64,000 nucleotides of DNA, taken from NCBI GenBank assembly GCA_029261815.1, contig JAJDAQ010000118.1, positions 1 to 64,000 on the forward strand, in the 5' to 3' direction. This document shows, piece after piece, positions 44,162 to 52,027 of this stretch. Position 1 is the first letter of the stretch; every line of letters starts with the position of its first letter. The translations under genes were made by a program, and so were the position numbers. Under the pieces are notes generated by a model, which was not told where the DNA came from, searched no databases, and saw only the letters and a program-made list of their open reading frames with translations. This DNA comes from Deltaproteobacteria bacterium. GTDB lineage: Bacteria; Myxococcota_A; UBA9160; UBA6930.

Positions 44162-44872
44162 ATGTTCTTCGACCCCCTGTATCTCGCCGTCATGGGCCTG
44201 GGCGCCCTCCTTTCGTTTGGTGCCAGCTGGCTGACCAAACGGCGCTTCAAGAAGTACTCGCAGATGCCGACCCGCTCCGGCATGACGGGGGCCGACATCG
44301 CCCGCTCGATCCTGCGTGACAAGGGCATCTTCGACGTTGAGGTGGAACCCGTCGCCGGCACCCTGTCCGACCACTACGACCCGCGCAGCAAGACGCTGAG
44401 GCTCAGCGAGCCGGTCTTCGGCGGCCGCAGCATGGCCGCGTTCGGAGTCGCTGCCCACGAGGTGGGACACGCCATCCAGCACGCCGAGGGTTACCTGCCG
44501 CTGCGCTTCCGCTCGGCCTGGGTTCCGGTGGCCAGCACCGGCGGCAACATCTCGCTCTTCGTCATCATCGCGGCCGCGGTGATGGGTGGCGTCACCACGA
44601 CGTGGGGCGCTGGGCTCGCATGGATCGGCGTCGCCCTGTTCGCGACGACCACACTATTCACGCTCGTCACCTTGCCCGTCGAGTTCGATGCCAGCCGGCG
44701 CGCGCTCGCATGCCTCGACGGTCGCTACGTCAGCGAGGAAGAGGCGGACGGGGCTCGGAAGGTGCTGGGAGCGGCCGCCATGACCTACGTGGCCGCTTTC
44801 GCCGCGTCCCTCATGACCCTGATCTATTGGGCCATGCGGCTGGGCTTGCTTGGCGGTCGATCGAACAACTAG
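44162..44872 (+). CDS. zinc membrane metallopeptidase, YugP family
   Basis: LSDHYDPRSKTLRLSEPVFGGRSMAAFGVAAHEVGHAIQHAEGYLPLRFRSAWVPVASTGGN. Confidence 0.93.
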   Translation: MFFDPLYLAVMGLGALLSFGASWLTKRRFKKYSQMPTRSGMTGADIARSILRDKGIFDVEVEPVAGTLSDHYDPRSKTLRLSEPVFGGRSMAAFGVAAHEVGHAIQHAEGYLPLRFRSAWVPVASTGGNISLFVIIAAAVMGGVTTTWGAGLAWIGVALFATTTLFTLVTLPVEFDASRRALACLDGRYVSEEEADGARKVLGAAAMTYVAAFAASLMTLIYWAMRLGLLGGRSNN

Positions 44873-46020
44873 CGGTCCGAGACGCGCGCGTAGAACCGTG
44901 CGATCTCGTCAGAGACGCGATCCACCTGGGCTTCCGTCAGACCCGGAAACATCGGGAGCCGCAACAGACAAGCGGCGGCAGCGTCGGTCACCGGAAGCTC
45001 CCCAAACGGGCGCCCCACCTTTTCGCCCATCACGGACGAATGCAACGGGACGTAGTGCGAGACGCTGCTGATCTTCGCGGCACGGAGCCACGCCATCAGT
45101 GCGTCGCGCTCGTCGCCACTGCGGGCGCGGACGAAGAAGGCATGCGCATTGTCCCGCGCTGCCGGGGGCGCGAAAGGCAGCCGCAGCAGTCCTGCCGCCT
45201 CGAGGGGCGCGAGGCGCTCGCGGTAACCGTGGGCGCGCGCTCGGCGGTCCCGGGTCAGGTTCGCGGCGGCTTCCAATTGCGCGAACAAGAACGCGCACGG
45301 AATTTCGCCTGCACCAAACGACGATCCCAGGTCGACCCAGCTGTACTTGTCGACTTCCCCGCGCAGGAACTTCTGACGGTTGGTGCCCTTGTCCCGGAGG
45401 ATCTCGGCACGCTCAACCAGGGCCGGGTCGTTGATGCACAGCGCGCCACCTTCCCCACAAATGACATTCTTGGTCTCGTGGAAGCTGTAGATGCCGAGAT
45501 CGCCCAGGCTTCCGAGTTCGCGACCTCGATAGGTCGCGTCGATCCCATGGGCGGCATCCTCGATCAGCCGGATGTGTGCGTTGCTAGCGGCCTCCGCGAG
45601 CGCGTCCATCTCGCACGCCACGCCGGCGTAGTGCACGGCCACGATCGCCCGCGTGTTCGGCGTGACCGCTTCGGCCACGAGGCGTTCGTCGAGATTGAGC
45701 GTGTCATCGCGAACGTCTACGAAGACTGGCGTTGCGCCATTCCGAACGAACGCGCTGGCGGTCGAAACAAAGGTGAATGACGGCATGATCACTTCGTCGC
45801 CAGGTCCGACATCACATAGCAACGCAGCCATCTCGAGCGCGGCGGTCCCCGATGCCGTCATCAGGACCCGCGGGATCCCGCCTCTCTCCTGCAGCAGGGC
45901 TTCGCACCGCCGCGTGAATGCACCATCCGCCGACAACTGACCGAGGGCGATCGCCTCTTCGATGTAGCCGAGTTCGTTGCCGCTAATGGCGGGGCGATTG
46001 AACGGGATCGGGTCGCTCAC
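44869..46020 (-). CDS. DegT/DnrJ/EryC1 sugar aminotransferase, WecE/RffA-like
   Basis: GTG 46020; IPFNRPAISGNELGYIEEAI...TASGTAALEMAALL...SFHETKNVICGEGGALCIN (PLP Lys context). Confidence 0.9.
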   Translation of the reverse strand: MSDPIPFNRPAISGNELGYIEEAIALGQLSADGAFTRRCEALLQERGGIPRVLMTASGTAALEMAALLCDVGPGDEVIMPSFTFVSTASAFVRNGATPVFVDVRDDTLNLDERLVAEAVTPNTRAIVAVHYAGVACEMDALAEAASNAHIRLIEDAAHGIDATYRGRELGSLGDLGIYSFHETKNVICGEGGALCINDPALVERAEILRDKGTNRQKFLRGEVDKYSWVDLGSSFGAGEIPCAFLFAQLEAAANLTRDRRARAHGYRERLAPLEAAGLLRLPFAPPAARDNAHAFFVRARSGDERDALMAWLRAAKISSVSHYVPLHSSVMGEKVGRPFGELPVTDAAAACLLRLPMFPGLTEAQVDRVSDEIARFYARVSDR

Positions 46021-47108
46021 GACTCGGCCCGCCCGGCAGCAGCCGCGATCTCGCGGGCAAGTCGGATCGCGTCGCGACGGATGCCGCGAAGCATCCGACT
46101 CGTGAAGTCGGTCTGGCCGTCCAACCCGAGGAAGTAGAGACCGCGTGCCGCCTGGCACTCAGCACCGTCGAGCGCCGGCAGGCCGTTCACCGGGTTGAGT
46201 GGAACGTTCGCGGGCAGATGGCCGAGAGCGGGGCGATAGCCGGTGGCCCAGAGCACCGCGTCGGCCGTCTCCACCTCGCCTCCAGCGAGATGGATCTTGT
46301 CCGCATCGAAATGGTCGATGGGACCGACGGTCCGGATCGTGCCCTTGCGCAGGAGCCGCGCGATCCGGCCACCCGCCATGTTGAGCCCAGAGCTGCGTTG
46401 TGCGAAGCGTCCGAGGCGCAGACGGATCGCCTCGTAGGGGTAGTAGGCGAGGAACCCGAGCTGTTGGAGAACGATCGGCGACGCGAACTCGATCGGGGAG
46501 CGATGCGAGATCCAGACGTCGAACCCAGCGTCGCAGAGTTCCAGGGCAAGCTGGCCCGCCGTGATCCGCTTCCCCACGATCCCGATCGTCCGGCGCCCCG
46601 GTCCCACGCGCTCTCGGACGGCGTCGACCGAGCCGTAGTCGGGCACCGAAAGCTGCAGAATCGAGCTTTCCTCGCGGCCAGGCGGCATCGGGACCACGGG
46701 GTTGGAGAAGTACCCGGTGGCGTTCACGACACGTCGTGCGAGAAGGGTCCCGCGTGGTGAATCCAGCCGAAATCCGTCAGCACCACTTGGTGCGATCGCA
46801 ACGACGGGCCAATCCGTTCGAAGCTCGATCCCGTCCGCACGCGCGCCTTGCTCCAGGTGAACGTGGAAATCTGCCCGTCGAAGACGCTTCGCATAGCGCC
46901 AGAGCGGAACCCGCGTTCCAGGAAGGCAACTCGCGCCCCACGCGGAGTTCAGCCGCATGTCTCTGGGCATTCGACGCCATGAGTCGCCCGCGGTCGGCCC
47001 CGCTTCGAGGACGACGACACGTCGGCCCAGCCGCGCCCATTCGCGCGCGAAGGAGATCCCAGCGGGGCCCGCGCCTACGACGACGAGATCGACACTTTCG
47101 GCACTCAC
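46017..47108 (-). CDS. FAD-dependent NAD(P)-binding monooxygenase-like oxidoreductase
   Basis: LVVVGAGPAGISFAREWARLGRRVVVLEAG; second dinucleotide fold TIGIVGKRITAGQLALEL; ATGYRP. Confidence 0.82.
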   Translation of the reverse strand: MSAESVDLVVVGAGPAGISFAREWARLGRRVVVLEAGPTAGDSWRRMPRDMRLNSAWGASCLPGTRVPLWRYAKRLRRADFHVHLEQGARADGIELRTDWPVVAIAPSGADGFRLDSPRGTLLARRVVNATGYFSNPVVPMPPGREESSILQLSVPDYGSVDAVRERVGPGRRTIGIVGKRITAGQLALELCDAGFDVWISHRSPIEFASPIVLQQLGFLAYYPYEAIRLRLGRFAQRSSGLNMAGGRIARLLRKGTIRTVGPIDHFDADKIHLAGGEVETADAVLWATGYRPALGHLPANVPLNPVNGLPALDGAECQAARGLYFLGLDGQTDFTSRMLRGIRRDAIRLAREIAAAAGRAES

Positions 47109-49273
47109 GGCATCACCCCTTCGCTGAAGAGGGCATCGAGCGCGGCCCCGAGAGTGGCCGAGTCGCCACCCCGGGTCAGGGCCCGACCCACCTGATCCCT
47201 GCTGTCATGGAATGTCCGCACCGTGTCGCCGACGGCAACATCAAACTCGACCGAAATCACATCGGGAAGGACGCGTTGGATGTCTCCGAGCTCGGGAATG
47301 CGCATGACCGTCCCGGCGTGGGTCGCGCCGAGCGTGTGCGCGGCGGCCGGCGTCGTCACCCCGTCGATCCGCACGGATTCCGGGGCCTCTCCAAGTGCCG
47401 CCTGGATCGCGAAGTGCGCCAGATCGAAACCGGTCGATTCGCGCACCAGGTCACGAATTCCATTCCCGCCGAGACGTGGCGACATTTCCAGCACCACCGG
47501 CATGCCATCCGGACCCAGCCGAACGTCCGCGTTCAGGACGCCGCATTCGAAGTCGGCCGCCTGGACATGGGCCTGCAGCTCTCCCGCGATGCGGGCCTCG
47601 AGCGCCGGCGACAGGCCCGACGGCAGGAGGTGTCCGCGCACTCCGCAACCGTCGAGGCGCTTTCGGGTCACGAAGAAGTGAACGAGCTGCCCGGCGAGGA
47701 CAACGCCGTCTCCGCCGAACTCATCTCCCTCGACAAAGCGCTCGACGCGCGCGCGACCGGAAAAACTCACGTCGATGGCTTCCGCGACCGCGCGTGCCAT
47801 GCCCTCGCTGTCACCGCCGTCCACGACTCGCACGGCGCGCGAACCCGAACGGTCGACCGGCTTCACGACGTAGCGACCCTGCCCCATCGACTTGTCATCG
47901 AGTTCTTCGGTCGAGGCACAAACGAAACCGTCGGGGGCGCGCAGGCCCGCGCGCGCCTGGAAGGCGCGGAAGCGCTCCTTGTCGAGCCAGTCTCGCGATG
48001 CGAGCCCGGTCGCATCCCGCAGACCCAGCGCTTGCGCCACGGCGGCCACACCCGGGACCGCAACATCGGAGGCCGCGGTCATGACCGCATGAACGGGGGA
48101 ATCGGTCGCCGCACGAACGAGTGCCGCGGTGTCGCGGGTACTGACGTTCCATTGCTCATGGGACCATTCGTGGGCCGGATTCGAGGGCACATTGTCGGCC
48201 GTGACCACGTGGAGACCCATCTCGACGGCGCGCTGAACGAATGGAAGCTGGAGCGCACTGGCACCGAGAACGAGCAGTCGCGAGCGTTCCCGAGGCGCCT
48301 GTTCCCGCGCCGCGGTCGCTGGGTTGCCCCGCTCTTCGCGGATCACATGACGCGGTTGGCCGGTGACTTCGGCGACAACGCGCTGCACGTACTCGCCGAC
48401 GATGCCGATCGACAACAACATCGTGCCGGCAATGAACGTGAGCAGCAGGACCAGCGTCGCGAACCCGGGCTCCTGGATATAGCCAAGCGCCCACCGTCCC
48501 AGGTAGAAGAGCGAGAGGACGAAGGAGCCCAACGCGACGCCGAACCCCGCGACGGTCATCACACGCAGGGGCGCGAGCGAGGCCTGGAAGACGTTGTCGA
48601 GTCCGAGCTCGATGAGTCCACCCCAGGTGTAGCCAGACTCCCCATGGACTCGGTCGTGGTGGTCCACCTCGACGTTCATCCGGTGCTGCGGCTGTGTGCT
48701 TTGCAGGATCAGCGCGCCGAGTTGCGGGCGCCGCGTGTCGTACGAACAAAGCACCTGCGCCACCGAGCGACGGATCAGACGAAAGCTCGTCGTCTGGAAG
48801 TCCTCGGGTTTGCCGTAGAAACGCTTGTAGAGCGCGGAGACGATTCGACTTCCGACGTTGCGCAACAGGCTGTGCCGCTTCCGCGCGTACGCACCAATGA
48901 TGACGTCCATCTCCGGGTTCTCGGCAGCCGCGCGCAGGAGCTTCGGAATTTCTTCCGGCGGGGTTTGGAGATCGTCATCCAGCGTCGCCACCCAATCGCC
49001 GGTGGCGTGCTCCATTCCAGCCAATGTCGCCCGGAACTGGCCCACGTTGAACTGGAGCCGCATCGCGCGCACCCAGCCACGGTCTTGTGCGGCCTCTTCC
49101 AGGGCCGGCCAGGTCACCGAATCGGGTGAGGCGTCGTCCACCAGGATCAGTTCACGGCGGCCCTTCAAGTCGCGCGTCGCGTGATCGATGCGATTCACGA
49201 GATCGGCCGTCCACGCTCCGCTACGGAAGCACGGCACCACGATCGTCAGCGATTCGCGAAAACACGCCTGCAC
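47105..49273 (-). CDS. fusion: ArnC/GtrB-like GT2 glycosyltransferase with TM helices plus ATP-grasp ligase domain
   Basis: GT2: LTIVVPCFRSGAW...ILVDDASPD...TLDDDLQTPPEEIPKLL, two TM helices (AGFGVALGSFVLSLFYLG; LVLLLTFIAGTMLLSIGIVGEYV). ATP-grasp: LLVLGASALQLPFVQRAVEMGLHVVTADNVPSNPA...RYVVKPVDRSGSRAV...VVLEMSPRLGGNGI. One uninterrupted 722-aa ORF. Confidence 0.88.
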   Translation of the reverse strand: MQACFRESLTIVVPCFRSGAWTADLVNRIDHATRDLKGRRELILVDDASPDSVTWPALEEAAQDRGWVRAMRLQFNVGQFRATLAGMEHATGDWVATLDDDLQTPPEEIPKLLRAAAENPEMDVIIGAYARKRHSLLRNVGSRIVSALYKRFYGKPEDFQTTSFRLIRRSVAQVLCSYDTRRPQLGALILQSTQPQHRMNVEVDHHDRVHGESGYTWGGLIELGLDNVFQASLAPLRVMTVAGFGVALGSFVLSLFYLGRWALGYIQEPGFATLVLLLTFIAGTMLLSIGIVGEYVQRVVAEVTGQPRHVIREERGNPATAAREQAPRERSRLLVLGASALQLPFVQRAVEMGLHVVTADNVPSNPAHEWSHEQWNVSTRDTAALVRAATDSPVHAVMTAASDVAVPGVAAVAQALGLRDATGLASRDWLDKERFRAFQARAGLRAPDGFVCASTEELDDKSMGQGRYVVKPVDRSGSRAVRVVDGGDSEGMARAVAEAIDVSFSGRARVERFVEGDEFGGDGVVLAGQLVHFFVTRKRLDGCGVRGHLLPSGLSPALEARIAGELQAHVQAADFECGVLNADVRLGPDGMPVVLEMSPRLGGNGIRDLVRESTGFDLAHFAIQAALGEAPESVRIDGVTTPAAAHTLGATHAGTVMRIPELGDIQRVLPDVISVEFDVAVGDTVRTFHDSRDQVGRALTRGGDSATLGAALDALFSEGVMP

Positions 49274-49403: not shown

Positions 49404-50966
49404 ATGATTGACCCTGAGAAGCTCCAGACCTGGCTCAGCCGCCCCCTCCGGGGACTAATTGCGGCCGCTCTGCTGGTTTCCGCTTCTGGATTTTGGGGCT
49501 TTACCTTGGGCGCTGATGAAGGGTGGAACCTCGTCAGTGTAGCCGCCGTGATCGGCCAGCCGGAGATTGCGTACGAAAACGCCCCCGTACTATCGAGTAC
49601 CGGCCTCTACGCGGCCCTTCACGGTGCCGCCTTTCGTCTCGGGATCGAACAGCTGGCCGTGCATCGCGCGCTGTCACTTGGCGCGGCCCTGGTTGCCTGG
49701 TGGTTGGCGCTGCAGCTCCTACCCCGCGAATCTCGCGGGCCCGATGCCGGATGGCTCGTCGCAGCCGGAATCGCGGCCGCTCCCGGAGCGATCACATTCG
49801 CCAGCCTCGCCTTCGCGGAATGGCTGGCCGCCGCTCTCGTGGTGGGATTCGTCGTGGCCCTCGAACGCGACGGGAGCCGCGGGTGGGGTCGCAGCCTCAT
49901 TTGCGCAGGACTCCTCGGGCTGGCGATGGCCACACGATCGACCGCGATCGCGGTGGTTCCCGGGTTCCTGATCTGGTCGTGGATCGGGCCTGCGGGCCGC
50001 TTCGAACGGGTTCGCGACGCCGTCATCATCGCCGCACTGGCCGGGGCCCTGTTCATGGGCTTTACGGCCGCATACTCGTCGATGGCGCCAACGACGACGG
50101 TCGCCACAGAGACGCTGACAACGATGGGCTTGCAGGGCCTGGTTCCCGACTACCCACGGCTGATGAATCGGTGGCTCGTCGGCGAGCGGCTCCTCCCCAT
50201 CGCCTCCCTGGTAGCCGCGAGCGTCCTGCTGATCGGCTGGGGCGTGCGTCGAGCGGGCCGCCTCCCCCCTTGGAGTCTGCTGCTCGCCATGGCATGGAGT
50301 GGCTGGGCCTTGTGGATGTTGCGTGCTCCGATCGCGCATCTCCGCTACCTCTGGCCCGCCGTCGCATTGCTAGGCGTTGGCGTGGGGCTCGGCCTCGCGA
50401 TGCTGGCACGCCGCGAAGGGCGTCACTCGCGAACCATCGCACTCGCGCTGGCGATTGGCATCACCATCGGTCCGGTCATGAGCGCGACACGTCACCTGGT
50501 CAACGGGAATAGCGACATCATCGCCTGGGAGTGGTCGGGCGAGGCCGCGCTCTCGTACACGCGCCGTTTCCAGCAAGTGCGCGACCAACGCGACATCGCA
50601 GCGTGGATGCAGGCAAACGTGCCCGCAAGCGAAGAGATCGCGATCTTCTCCCAGCCCTACGCGATGCGCTTCCTGTCTCGCCGGAATCTCGTCTCCATGT
50701 GGAACTACGCGGACGCATCCGAGGTGCGCTGGAAGAGTGAGAGGCGGCCTGTCTGGATTCTCCTTCAACCCACCAATCATGCCTTTCGCTACCTCCCGGC
50801 CGCCGCGATGAACTGGATCGCAGCGGCATGCACGCTCGAAGCCCAGTTCGGCGCCTACGTGCTCTACCGCGTTGACGGCCCCTGGCCCGAATCCGCGACA
50901 CCGTTCCGGCTGGAAGGTCGTCCCTACGAGACCTACCCACTCGCGGCGCCTCGATTCGGCGGATGA
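49404..50966 (+). CDS. GT39/ArnT-like multi-TM glycosyltransferase
   Basis: ATG 49404; N-terminal FTLGADEGWNLVSVAAVIGQPEI acidic loop after TM1, about 10 TM segments. Confidence 0.72.
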   Translation: MIDPEKLQTWLSRPLRGLIAAALLVSASGFWGFTLGADEGWNLVSVAAVIGQPEIAYENAPVLSSTGLYAALHGAAFRLGIEQLAVHRALSLGAALVAWWLALQLLPRESRGPDAGWLVAAGIAAAPGAITFASLAFAEWLAAALVVGFVVALERDGSRGWGRSLICAGLLGLAMATRSTAIAVVPGFLIWSWIGPAGRFERVRDAVIIAALAGALFMGFTAAYSSMAPTTTVATETLTTMGLQGLVPDYPRLMNRWLVGERLLPIASLVAASVLLIGWGVRRAGRLPPWSLLLAMAWSGWALWMLRAPIAHLRYLWPAVALLGVGVGLGLAMLARREGRHSRTIALALAIGITIGPVMSATRHLVNGNSDIIAWEWSGEAALSYTRRFQQVRDQRDIAAWMQANVPASEEIAIFSQPYAMRFLSRRNLVSMWNYADASEVRWKSERRPVWILLQPTNHAFRYLPAAAMNWIAAACTLEAQFGAYVLYRVDGPWPESATPFRLEGRPYETYPLAAPRFGG

Positions 50967-52027
50967 CCTCCCAGCAAGTCCAGTCAGGGTCGACGGGCCG
51001 GCGATCGAAATGGTTGGGCGTGGGCATGGGTGCCCTACTGCTGGCATTCGCGCTCTGGAACGTGCCACTGGATGCTGTGCGCAGCGCCCTCGCCGAGGTG
51101 TCGATCTTCACACTCGTTGCGATCGCAGCGCTGACACTGCTCCAGCAGGCGTTTCGAACCGCTCGCCAACGCGTCCTCCTCGAACCACTCGCACCCGGGA
51201 TCGGCTGGCGGCGTCAGCTCACCATCTTCTTTGCGGGCTTTCTCGCGATTGCGGTATTCCCCGCGCGCCTCGGAGAGTTTGCACGCCCGGTGCTGCTCGA
51301 GCGTGGCCACGGACTCCCCGTCGCTCGCGGTCTCGCATTCGTCGTCGCCGAGCGGACCCTCGACATGCTGGCCGTGCTGATCGGCCTGGTTTGGGCACTC
51401 GGGGAAGCCGACGCCGGGCACCCCGCCGGTGCAGTGGCCCTCGGGCTGCGGCCGTATCTGGGGGGTGCGGTCGTGCTGCTCGGTTGCGGCTTCGCGGTCG
51501 CCACCTTCTGGGGCCAAGCATGGGTCGCCCGCCTTCCCCGCCCCACGTCGTCCTTCGGTCGCCGGCTCTACGAGGCCGTCACCTCGTTCGTCGCCGCACT
51601 GGCCCAGTTCCGTGGGCCACGCGCGATCGTCGGAGCGGGACTCCTCACCGTTCTTCACTTCGCCTGCATGGTCGGCAGCGCCTGGCTGCTCGCAACCCAG
51701 CTCGAGCTAGGCGACATCCTGACACCGCTGGCCTGCCTCGGGATCCTCGGCATCACCATGATCGGTCTCGCGCTTCCGGCGCCGCCGGCCCAGGTCGGCG
51801 TCTTCGAGGGGTCCGTGGTCGCGGCAACCCTTGTCTTTGGCGTTCCAGAGACGCTCGGCGCCCAGGCGGTGGCCTTCGCCCTCGTCCTGCATTGGTGGCC
51901 CCTTTCGGTGCACGCGATTGCAACGTGGCCACTGCTTGCAGGAGACCGGATGCTTTGGAGAGAGCTGCGGAGTGGCGTTCGACGTGCGGCGTCCGAGACA
52001 CCGCCGCCACCCGAGCAACCCGCCTAG
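50963..52027 (+). CDS. UPF0104/lysylphosphatidylglycerol synthetase TM-region (AglD-like) membrane protein
   Basis: LGVGMGALLLAFALWNVPLDAVRSALAEV...FFAGFLAIAVFPARLGEFARPVLL...FVVAERTLDMLAVL; typical UPF0104 motifs. Confidence 0.82.
   Translation: MTSQQVQSGSTGRRSKWLGVGMGALLLAFALWNVPLDAVRSALAEVSIFTLVAIAALTLLQQAFRTARQRVLLEPLAPGIGWRRQLTIFFAGFLAIAVFPARLGEFARPVLLERGHGLPVARGLAFVVAERTLDMLAVLIGLVWALGEADAGHPAGAVALGLRPYLGGAVVLLGCGFAVATFWGQAWVARLPRPTSSFGRRLYEAVTSFVAALAQFRGPRAIVGAGLLTVLHFACMVGSAWLLATQLELGDILTPLACLGILGITMIGLALPAPPAQVGVFEGSVVAATLVFGVPETLGAQAVAFALVLHWWPLSVHAIATWPLLAGDRMLWRELRSGVRRAASETPPPPEQPA

Follow-up and report, generated by a model that had tools for sequence, protein, structure and literature searches.

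The locus and the fused gene

The stretch of DNA analysed here, hereafter the window, comprises 64,000 nucleotides of contig JAJDAQ010000118.1 from a Deltaproteobacteria bacterium. On its minus strand lies an operon of overlapping genes, the first of which encodes a GT2 glycosyltransferase fused to an ATP-grasp ligase, followed by genes for a flavin oxidoreductase and a WecE aminotransferase. Genes for a GT-C protein and a flippase-like protein are divergent to this operon.

44869..46020, minus strand: WecE-type dTDP-4-keto-6-deoxyglucose aminotransferase (dTDP-Fuc4N); 4-base overlap with the flavin gene
46017..47108, minus strand: flavin monooxygenase-like oxidoreductase; 4-base overlap with the fused gene
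47105..49273, minus strand: fused GT2/ATP-grasp protein; 722 aa, GTG start
47123..48280, minus strand: ATP-grasp ligase domain with LAL_C2, residues 332-717; Pfam, PDB match, motifs
48281..48334, minus strand: interdomain linker, residues 314-331; low-pLDDT core 321-326, without alternative start codon
48335..49252, minus strand: GT2 domain, ArnC/GtrB-like, residues 8-313; Pfam, PDB match, motif, transmembrane helices
49404..50966, plus strand: polytopic membrane protein, probable GT-C (ArnT-like) glycosyltransferase; LGxDExW motif, low-confidence model
50963..52027, plus strand: LPG_synthase_TM/flippase-like membrane protein; overlaps the GT-C gene

The initial annotation had proposed that a GT2 and an ATP-grasp domain run in a single frame, and this is borne out by the minus-strand frame at 47105-49273, in whose 722 codons Glycos_transf_2 and LAL_C2 both exceed their Pfam cut-offs, with weaker ATP-grasp models between the two matches. 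The window protein is confirmed to consist of an ArnC/GtrB-type GT2 domain, a short flexible linker, and an ATP-grasp domain of the L-amino-acid-ligase type. As an open frame of 797 aa also runs antisense to the fused gene (window 46736-49129, plus strand) in DNA with a GC content of 66%, the length of an open frame is by itself no proof of coding. This antisense frame was rejected as a gene, being best explained by the high GC, and the ranking of candidates by open-frame length was likewise discarded because long chance frames are common in GC-rich DNA; at L043, for example, a separate ATP-grasp gene sits inside an open frame of 845 aa.

Coding is supported by homology, codon-position GC and third-position divergence. 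Codon-position GC is gene-like all through the junction of the two halves, and codons 311-345 hold no in-frame ATG, GTG or TTG, so that the ATP-grasp half lacks a start of its own near the junction. The same fusion is present in a second species (G001, the only other genome found for the genus) at 58% identity over residues 7-717 and with no stop codons, where it is followed by the flavin gene and the aminotransferase and accompanied by the divergent membrane genes, as in the window. Between the two genomes (G000 and G001), divergence is highest at third codon positions in every part of the gene, including the linker.

A frameshift or an assembly error might be suspected, as the fusion is known from two genomes only, both of them drafts in many contigs, and as the two halves are separate genes in G077, a member of another family of the same order. 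However, the occurrence of the same stop-free fusion in two species at this level of identity, the coding signal across the junction and the third-position divergence rule out the lost stop or frameshift near 48.2 kb against which the initial annotation had cautioned, and make an artefact extremely improbable. No further fusion beyond the two species was found in a sweep of the class or among 379 genomes sampled from across the phylum's members. A contig scan, made with two peptide patterns only and thus no proof of absence elsewhere, recovered no third fused member.

Domains, topology and neighbouring genes

In the GT2 half, Glycos_transf_2 (PF00535) matches residues 10-173 (2e-23, 83.5 bits; cut-off 23.3), and residues 8-313 match ArnC (PDB 9bhc) at 3e-38 over nearly the full length of ArnC. 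The acidic nucleotide-sugar motif TLDDDLQTPPEE (residues 97-108) is conserved in three genomes. The two C-terminal transmembrane helices that had been read from the sequence were recovered both as hydropathy peaks (about 238-256 and 274-292) and as helices of the AlphaFold model (234-262 and 270-303). The domain lies below the ArnC equivalog cut-off (NF007986, 153.3 bits vs 529) and is predicted to transfer a sugar to polyprenyl phosphate.

In the ATP-grasp half, LAL_C2 (PF18603) matches residues 650-717 with 33.2 bits (cut-off 29.4). The core model PF13535 stays under its cut-off (17.8 bits vs 27) and is passed by an unfused homologue from a related cassette (40.7 bits). Residues 342-664 match the L-amino acid ligase 3vot (PDB) at 5e-15, and the sequence profile of this half prefers amino-acid ligases and 4dim over PurT. 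The KP, VE, D and LEMSPRLGGN motifs are conserved and can be aligned with 3vot, the positions of the ATP and metal ligands being intact, and K471, E511, D583, E596 and R600 are the candidate catalytic residues. The predicted activity is most likely ATP-dependent amide formation with an amino acid. The sequence does not tell which acid or amine is used, and our literature search found no activity described for this ATP-grasp subfamily.

An AlphaFold2 model of the fused protein, built from 39 window and locus sequences, has a mean pLDDT of 90.9 and a pTM of 0.82, with a weak linker at 321-326. Foldseek matched it at probability 1.00 to 4dim, the L-amino acid ligases (3vot, RizA and BacD), PurT and ArnC/GtrB; the match to 3vot reached 5e-27 for the ATP-grasp half. 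The placement of the protein in the membrane is borrowed from ArnC. As the ATP-grasp half contains no transmembrane segments, both active sites should face the cytoplasm.

The neighbouring aminotransferase exceeds both curated WecE cut-offs (NF008687 and TIGR02379), scoring 523.7 bits with PRK11706 (cut-off 375) and 476.5 with TIGR02379 (cut-off 434.85), and it matches PDB 4piw at 9e-121. As RmlB is also found above cut-off in the genome, dTDP-4-amino-4,6-dideoxygalactose (dTDP-Fuc4N) is a reasonable substrate. The flavin enzyme is similar to small flavin monooxygenases, and its gene occurs in four of the 379 genomes of the phylum, each time between a fusion-type ATP-grasp gene and WecE. Its second nucleotide-binding motif is unusual, reading GxRITAGQ in G000, G001 and G077.

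The first divergent protein (49404-50966) has a conserved LGxDExW motif. Sequence searches with this protein gave no match, and the best Foldseek matches of its poor model (pLDDT 54) are ArnT (5f15 and 5ezm) and other GT-C enzymes. The LPG_synthase_TM family, to which the second divergent protein belongs, also follows the GT2-ATP-grasp genes in G290, while a small EamA-family protein lies near the cluster in G077 and a protein matching EamA just under cut-off lies near that in G125. None of the operon genes looked like an ArnD-type deformylase, and no Rfam elements were found around the operon. Together, the neighbours resemble an Arn-like route of amino-sugar formation, N-acylation, carrier loading, flipping and transfer.

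Unfused relatives and the N-acyltransferase slot

In G077, the GT2 and ATP-grasp genes are separate and overlap by four bases (ATGA), and after them come the same flavin gene and WecE. The corresponding contig of G079 stops inside the ATP-grasp gene, of which the last codons are present together with the flavin gene and WecE. The trees of the two halves agree, each giving ((G000, G001), G077), as is expected under joint inheritance. The simplest reading is that the fusion arose by the joining of two translationally coupled neighbouring genes.

For the wider survey, a profile of three ATP-grasp sequences was used, which 41 of the 379 genomes match at 1e-25 or better, and the surroundings of most of these matches were examined, with gene calls from a simple open-reading-frame script and domain assignments from HMMER. 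Besides G077, an ArnC-like GT2 gene directly adjoins the ATP-grasp gene in thirteen loci (L067, L075, L076, L078, L079, L080, L081, L083, L085, L086, L099, L101 and L102), most of which have a DegT-family sugar aminotransferase close by. The two genes overlap by four bases in all five of these loci that were checked. In the ATP-grasp tree, ten of the thirteen form one clade separate from that of the fusion, so that the association of GT2 with ATP-grasp exists in at least two groups of the phylum. The architecture survey thus upholds the association: adjacency recurs across the phylum, and the unfused homologues are direct neighbours rather than always separate and distant, the observation that the initial annotation had named as speaking against a functional link. 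Many of the phylum's ATP-grasp homologues lack a GT2 gene beside them. Likewise, relatives from Bacteroidetes (L050) and Verrucomicrobium (L051) have no adjoining ArnC-like GT2; in L051, an aminotransferase, another type of GT2 and the ATP-grasp gene are consecutive.

In other families of the phylum, a recurrent cassette (L079, L080, L083, L085, L086 and related loci) consists of an epimerase/dehydratase, a DegT aminotransferase, an ArnC-like GT2 and the ATP-grasp protein, often with a SAM methyltransferase, and shows 4-base overlaps where checked. The aminotransferases scanned from the second cassette of the phylum fall under the WecE cut-offs, so the sugar may differ in that cassette. In G306 (L096 and L097), one short contig carries a GT2 gene beside genes for an RmlA-like nucleotidyltransferase, an RmlB-like protein and an NDP-hexose 2,3-dehydratase, and another contig carries the ATP-grasp gene and a WecE-like gene; the two are possibly one broken cluster.

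The nearest GT2 relatives within the order that have no ATP-grasp partner are usually encoded in one operon together with WecE and a GNAT protein. In 12 related loci (L032, L046, L130, L131, L134, L137, L139, L140, L142, L143, L144 and L145), a WecD-like GNAT gene lies beside the GT2 gene, mostly also with WecE, which was not seen in the stretches of L131, L137 and L140. The two GNAT proteins scanned fit best the model for the dTDP-4-amino-4,6-dideoxy-D-galactose acyltransferase WecD, with scores under the equivalog cut-off. When a profile was built from the GNAT proteins, it found full-length matches in all four GNAT genomes tested. In G000, G001, G077, G079, G290 and G306, it gave no full-length WecD-like match, returning a generic partial GNAT or nothing.

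Other occupants are seen as well. In G037, a formyltransferase (L133:5711-6613, PF00551 at 3e-23) lies between WecE and the ArnC-like GT2, and at some related GT2 loci an acyltransferase is missing altogether. In G213, the gene directly after a related GT2 encodes an AMP-binding adenylating enzyme (L111:2871-4439), possibly representing further acyl-activating chemistry at the same slot, and in G059 the start of the GT2 gene is overlapped by the gene for a divergent ATP-grasp-like protein with only a weak match (L113:4794-6107). Gene context thus suggests that the ATP-grasp protein occupies the slot which in the relatives belongs to the N-acyltransferase of the 4-amino group, and this replacement of the WecD-like GNAT is the main argument for its N-acylating role.

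Proposed function and relation to known systems

We propose, with a probability of about 0.7, that the fused protein is a membrane enzyme with two functions in the biosynthesis of amino-sugar envelope glycans, in which an ATP-dependent N-acylation is coupled to the loading of a lipid carrier, the acyl donor probably being an amino acid. The initial annotation had suggested that the synthesis of a lipid-linked sugar is coupled in this way to an ATP-dependent ligation, such as the formation of an amide on an amino sugar, and this idea finds support in the WecE scores, the replaced WecD-like slot and the recurrent adjacency of GT2 and ATP-grasp genes, the reaction itself being predicted from these. 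For the route as a whole, we infer which substrates are used, in what order the steps run, what finally accepts the sugar and what the flavin enzyme does. WecE would make dTDP-Fuc4N, and the ATP-grasp domain would form the acyl phosphate of a carboxylic acid, an amino acid being the likeliest, and link the acyl group to the 4-amino group of this nucleotide sugar or of its lipid-linked form. The N-acylated sugar would then be transferred to polyprenyl phosphate by the fused ArnC/GtrB-like domain at the cytoplasmic face, flipped by the flippase-like protein and passed to an extracytoplasmic acceptor by the ArnT-like GT-C protein, while the flavin enzyme may modify the sugar or its acyl group. 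That these steps make up an undescribed envelope pathway, in which an amino-acyl-Fuc4N produced by the ATP-grasp domain is altered by the flavin enzyme, loaded onto the carrier by the same polypeptide, flipped, and transferred to a surface acceptor by the ArnT-like protein, is a tentative proposal, for which we consider the odds to be somewhat short of even.

One form of this reading reverses its two reactions. The ligase may act after the transferase, acylating polyprenyl-phosphate-Fuc4N at the membrane; a cytoplasmic C-terminal fusion to a membrane GT2 would place the ligase at the lipid-linked product, and the predicted topology fits either order. However, WecD (PMC12212991) and ArnA (PMC12650200) acylate the nucleotide sugar, which is transferred later, and the ATP-grasp domain sits in a WecD-like slot, so that we consider the ligase-last order possible, at roughly one chance in three or a little less. 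The ATP-grasp domain might also be a formate-dependent N-formyltransferase of the PurT kind that protects the amino sugar ahead of the ArnC-like transfer, using formate and ATP for a step in which ArnA relies on formyl-tetrahydrofolate. PurT appears among the Foldseek matches and among the weak sequence matches, the substrate of ArnC itself is N-formylated (PMC12650200), and G037 has a formyltransferase in the slot. Nevertheless, LAL_C2 is the sole ATP-grasp-related Pfam model above cut-off, the sequence profile favours amino-acid ligases and 4dim, and a deformylase of the ArnD type is not visible in the operon, all of which make formylation unlikely. Slightly less likely still is the formation of an unrelated amide, such as a dipeptide, with an incidental GT2 fusion. 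The many homologues without a GT2 neighbour would be consistent with such a role, but in two separate groups the ATP-grasp gene repeatedly lies beside GT2 and aminotransferase genes, and this and the pattern of WecD replacement argue against it. N-acylation of an amino sugar coupled to carrier loading is our preferred reading.

Each part is known on its own, and the literature searched contained no example of their combination. The view that GT2/ATP-grasp is not an established enzyme architecture stands in that our search, which lay outside most subscription papers, met no description of the fusion. Amino acids in amide linkage are known on bacterial 4-amino-4,6-dideoxyglucose, whose acyl groups include N-acetyl-D-alanyl, N-acetylglycyl and hydroxybutyryl-alanyl (PMC3210612), and the predicted product is thus chemically plausible. 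An ATP-grasp amino acyl ligase, listed as a separate gene, has been reported in a sugar cluster of Clostridium acetobutylicum (PMC4000134). The fusion, its unfused forms and the replacement of WecD provide testable candidates for the ATP-dependent attachment of amino acids to 4-amino-4,6-dideoxy sugars, and the fusion would offer a handle for putting chosen acyl groups on lipid-linked amino sugars.

The window GT2 shares with ArnC and GtrB (PDB 9bhc, 8vxh, 9hwj and 9nyc) the GT2 fold, the TLDDDLQ acidic motif, two C-terminal transmembrane helices and the association with a 4-amino-sugar aminotransferase, but differs in its fused ATP-grasp domain. It also lies far under the ArnC equivalog cut-off (153 vs 529 bits), and its neighbouring aminotransferase is of the WecE type, not ArnB. 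With the L-amino acid ligases (BL00235/3vot, BacD/YwfE and RizA), the ATP-grasp half has in common the fold, LAL_C2 and the catalytic signature, including the E and R of LEMSPRLGGN. However, it is tethered to the membrane through the glycosyltransferase, and its predicted acceptor is an amino sugar instead of an amino acid.

The systems closest in logic are ArnA, of the L-Ara4N pathway, and WecD, the N-acyltransferase of the enterobacterial common antigen pathway (PMC12212991). ArnA combines a formyltransferase domain with the enzyme of a neighbouring pathway step (PMC12650200), and it would thus share with the window protein the joining of an amino-sugar N-acylating domain to an adjacent step. 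In contrast to the window protein, ArnA uses formyl-tetrahydrofolate, has a different fold and carries a dehydrogenase as the partner domain, whereas the partner in the window protein is a lipid-carrier transferase; the fusion would be an analogue of ArnA that joins the N-acylating step to the lipid-carrier step. The WecE-WecD-WecF route likewise proceeds from the formation of dTDP-Fuc4N by WecE through N-acylation to transfer onto a lipid-linked acceptor. In the window, however, N-acylation would be performed by a predicted ATP-dependent ligase in place of WecD, and the ArnC-like GT2 is predicted to act on the carrier itself, whereas WecF acts on a lipid-linked disaccharide.
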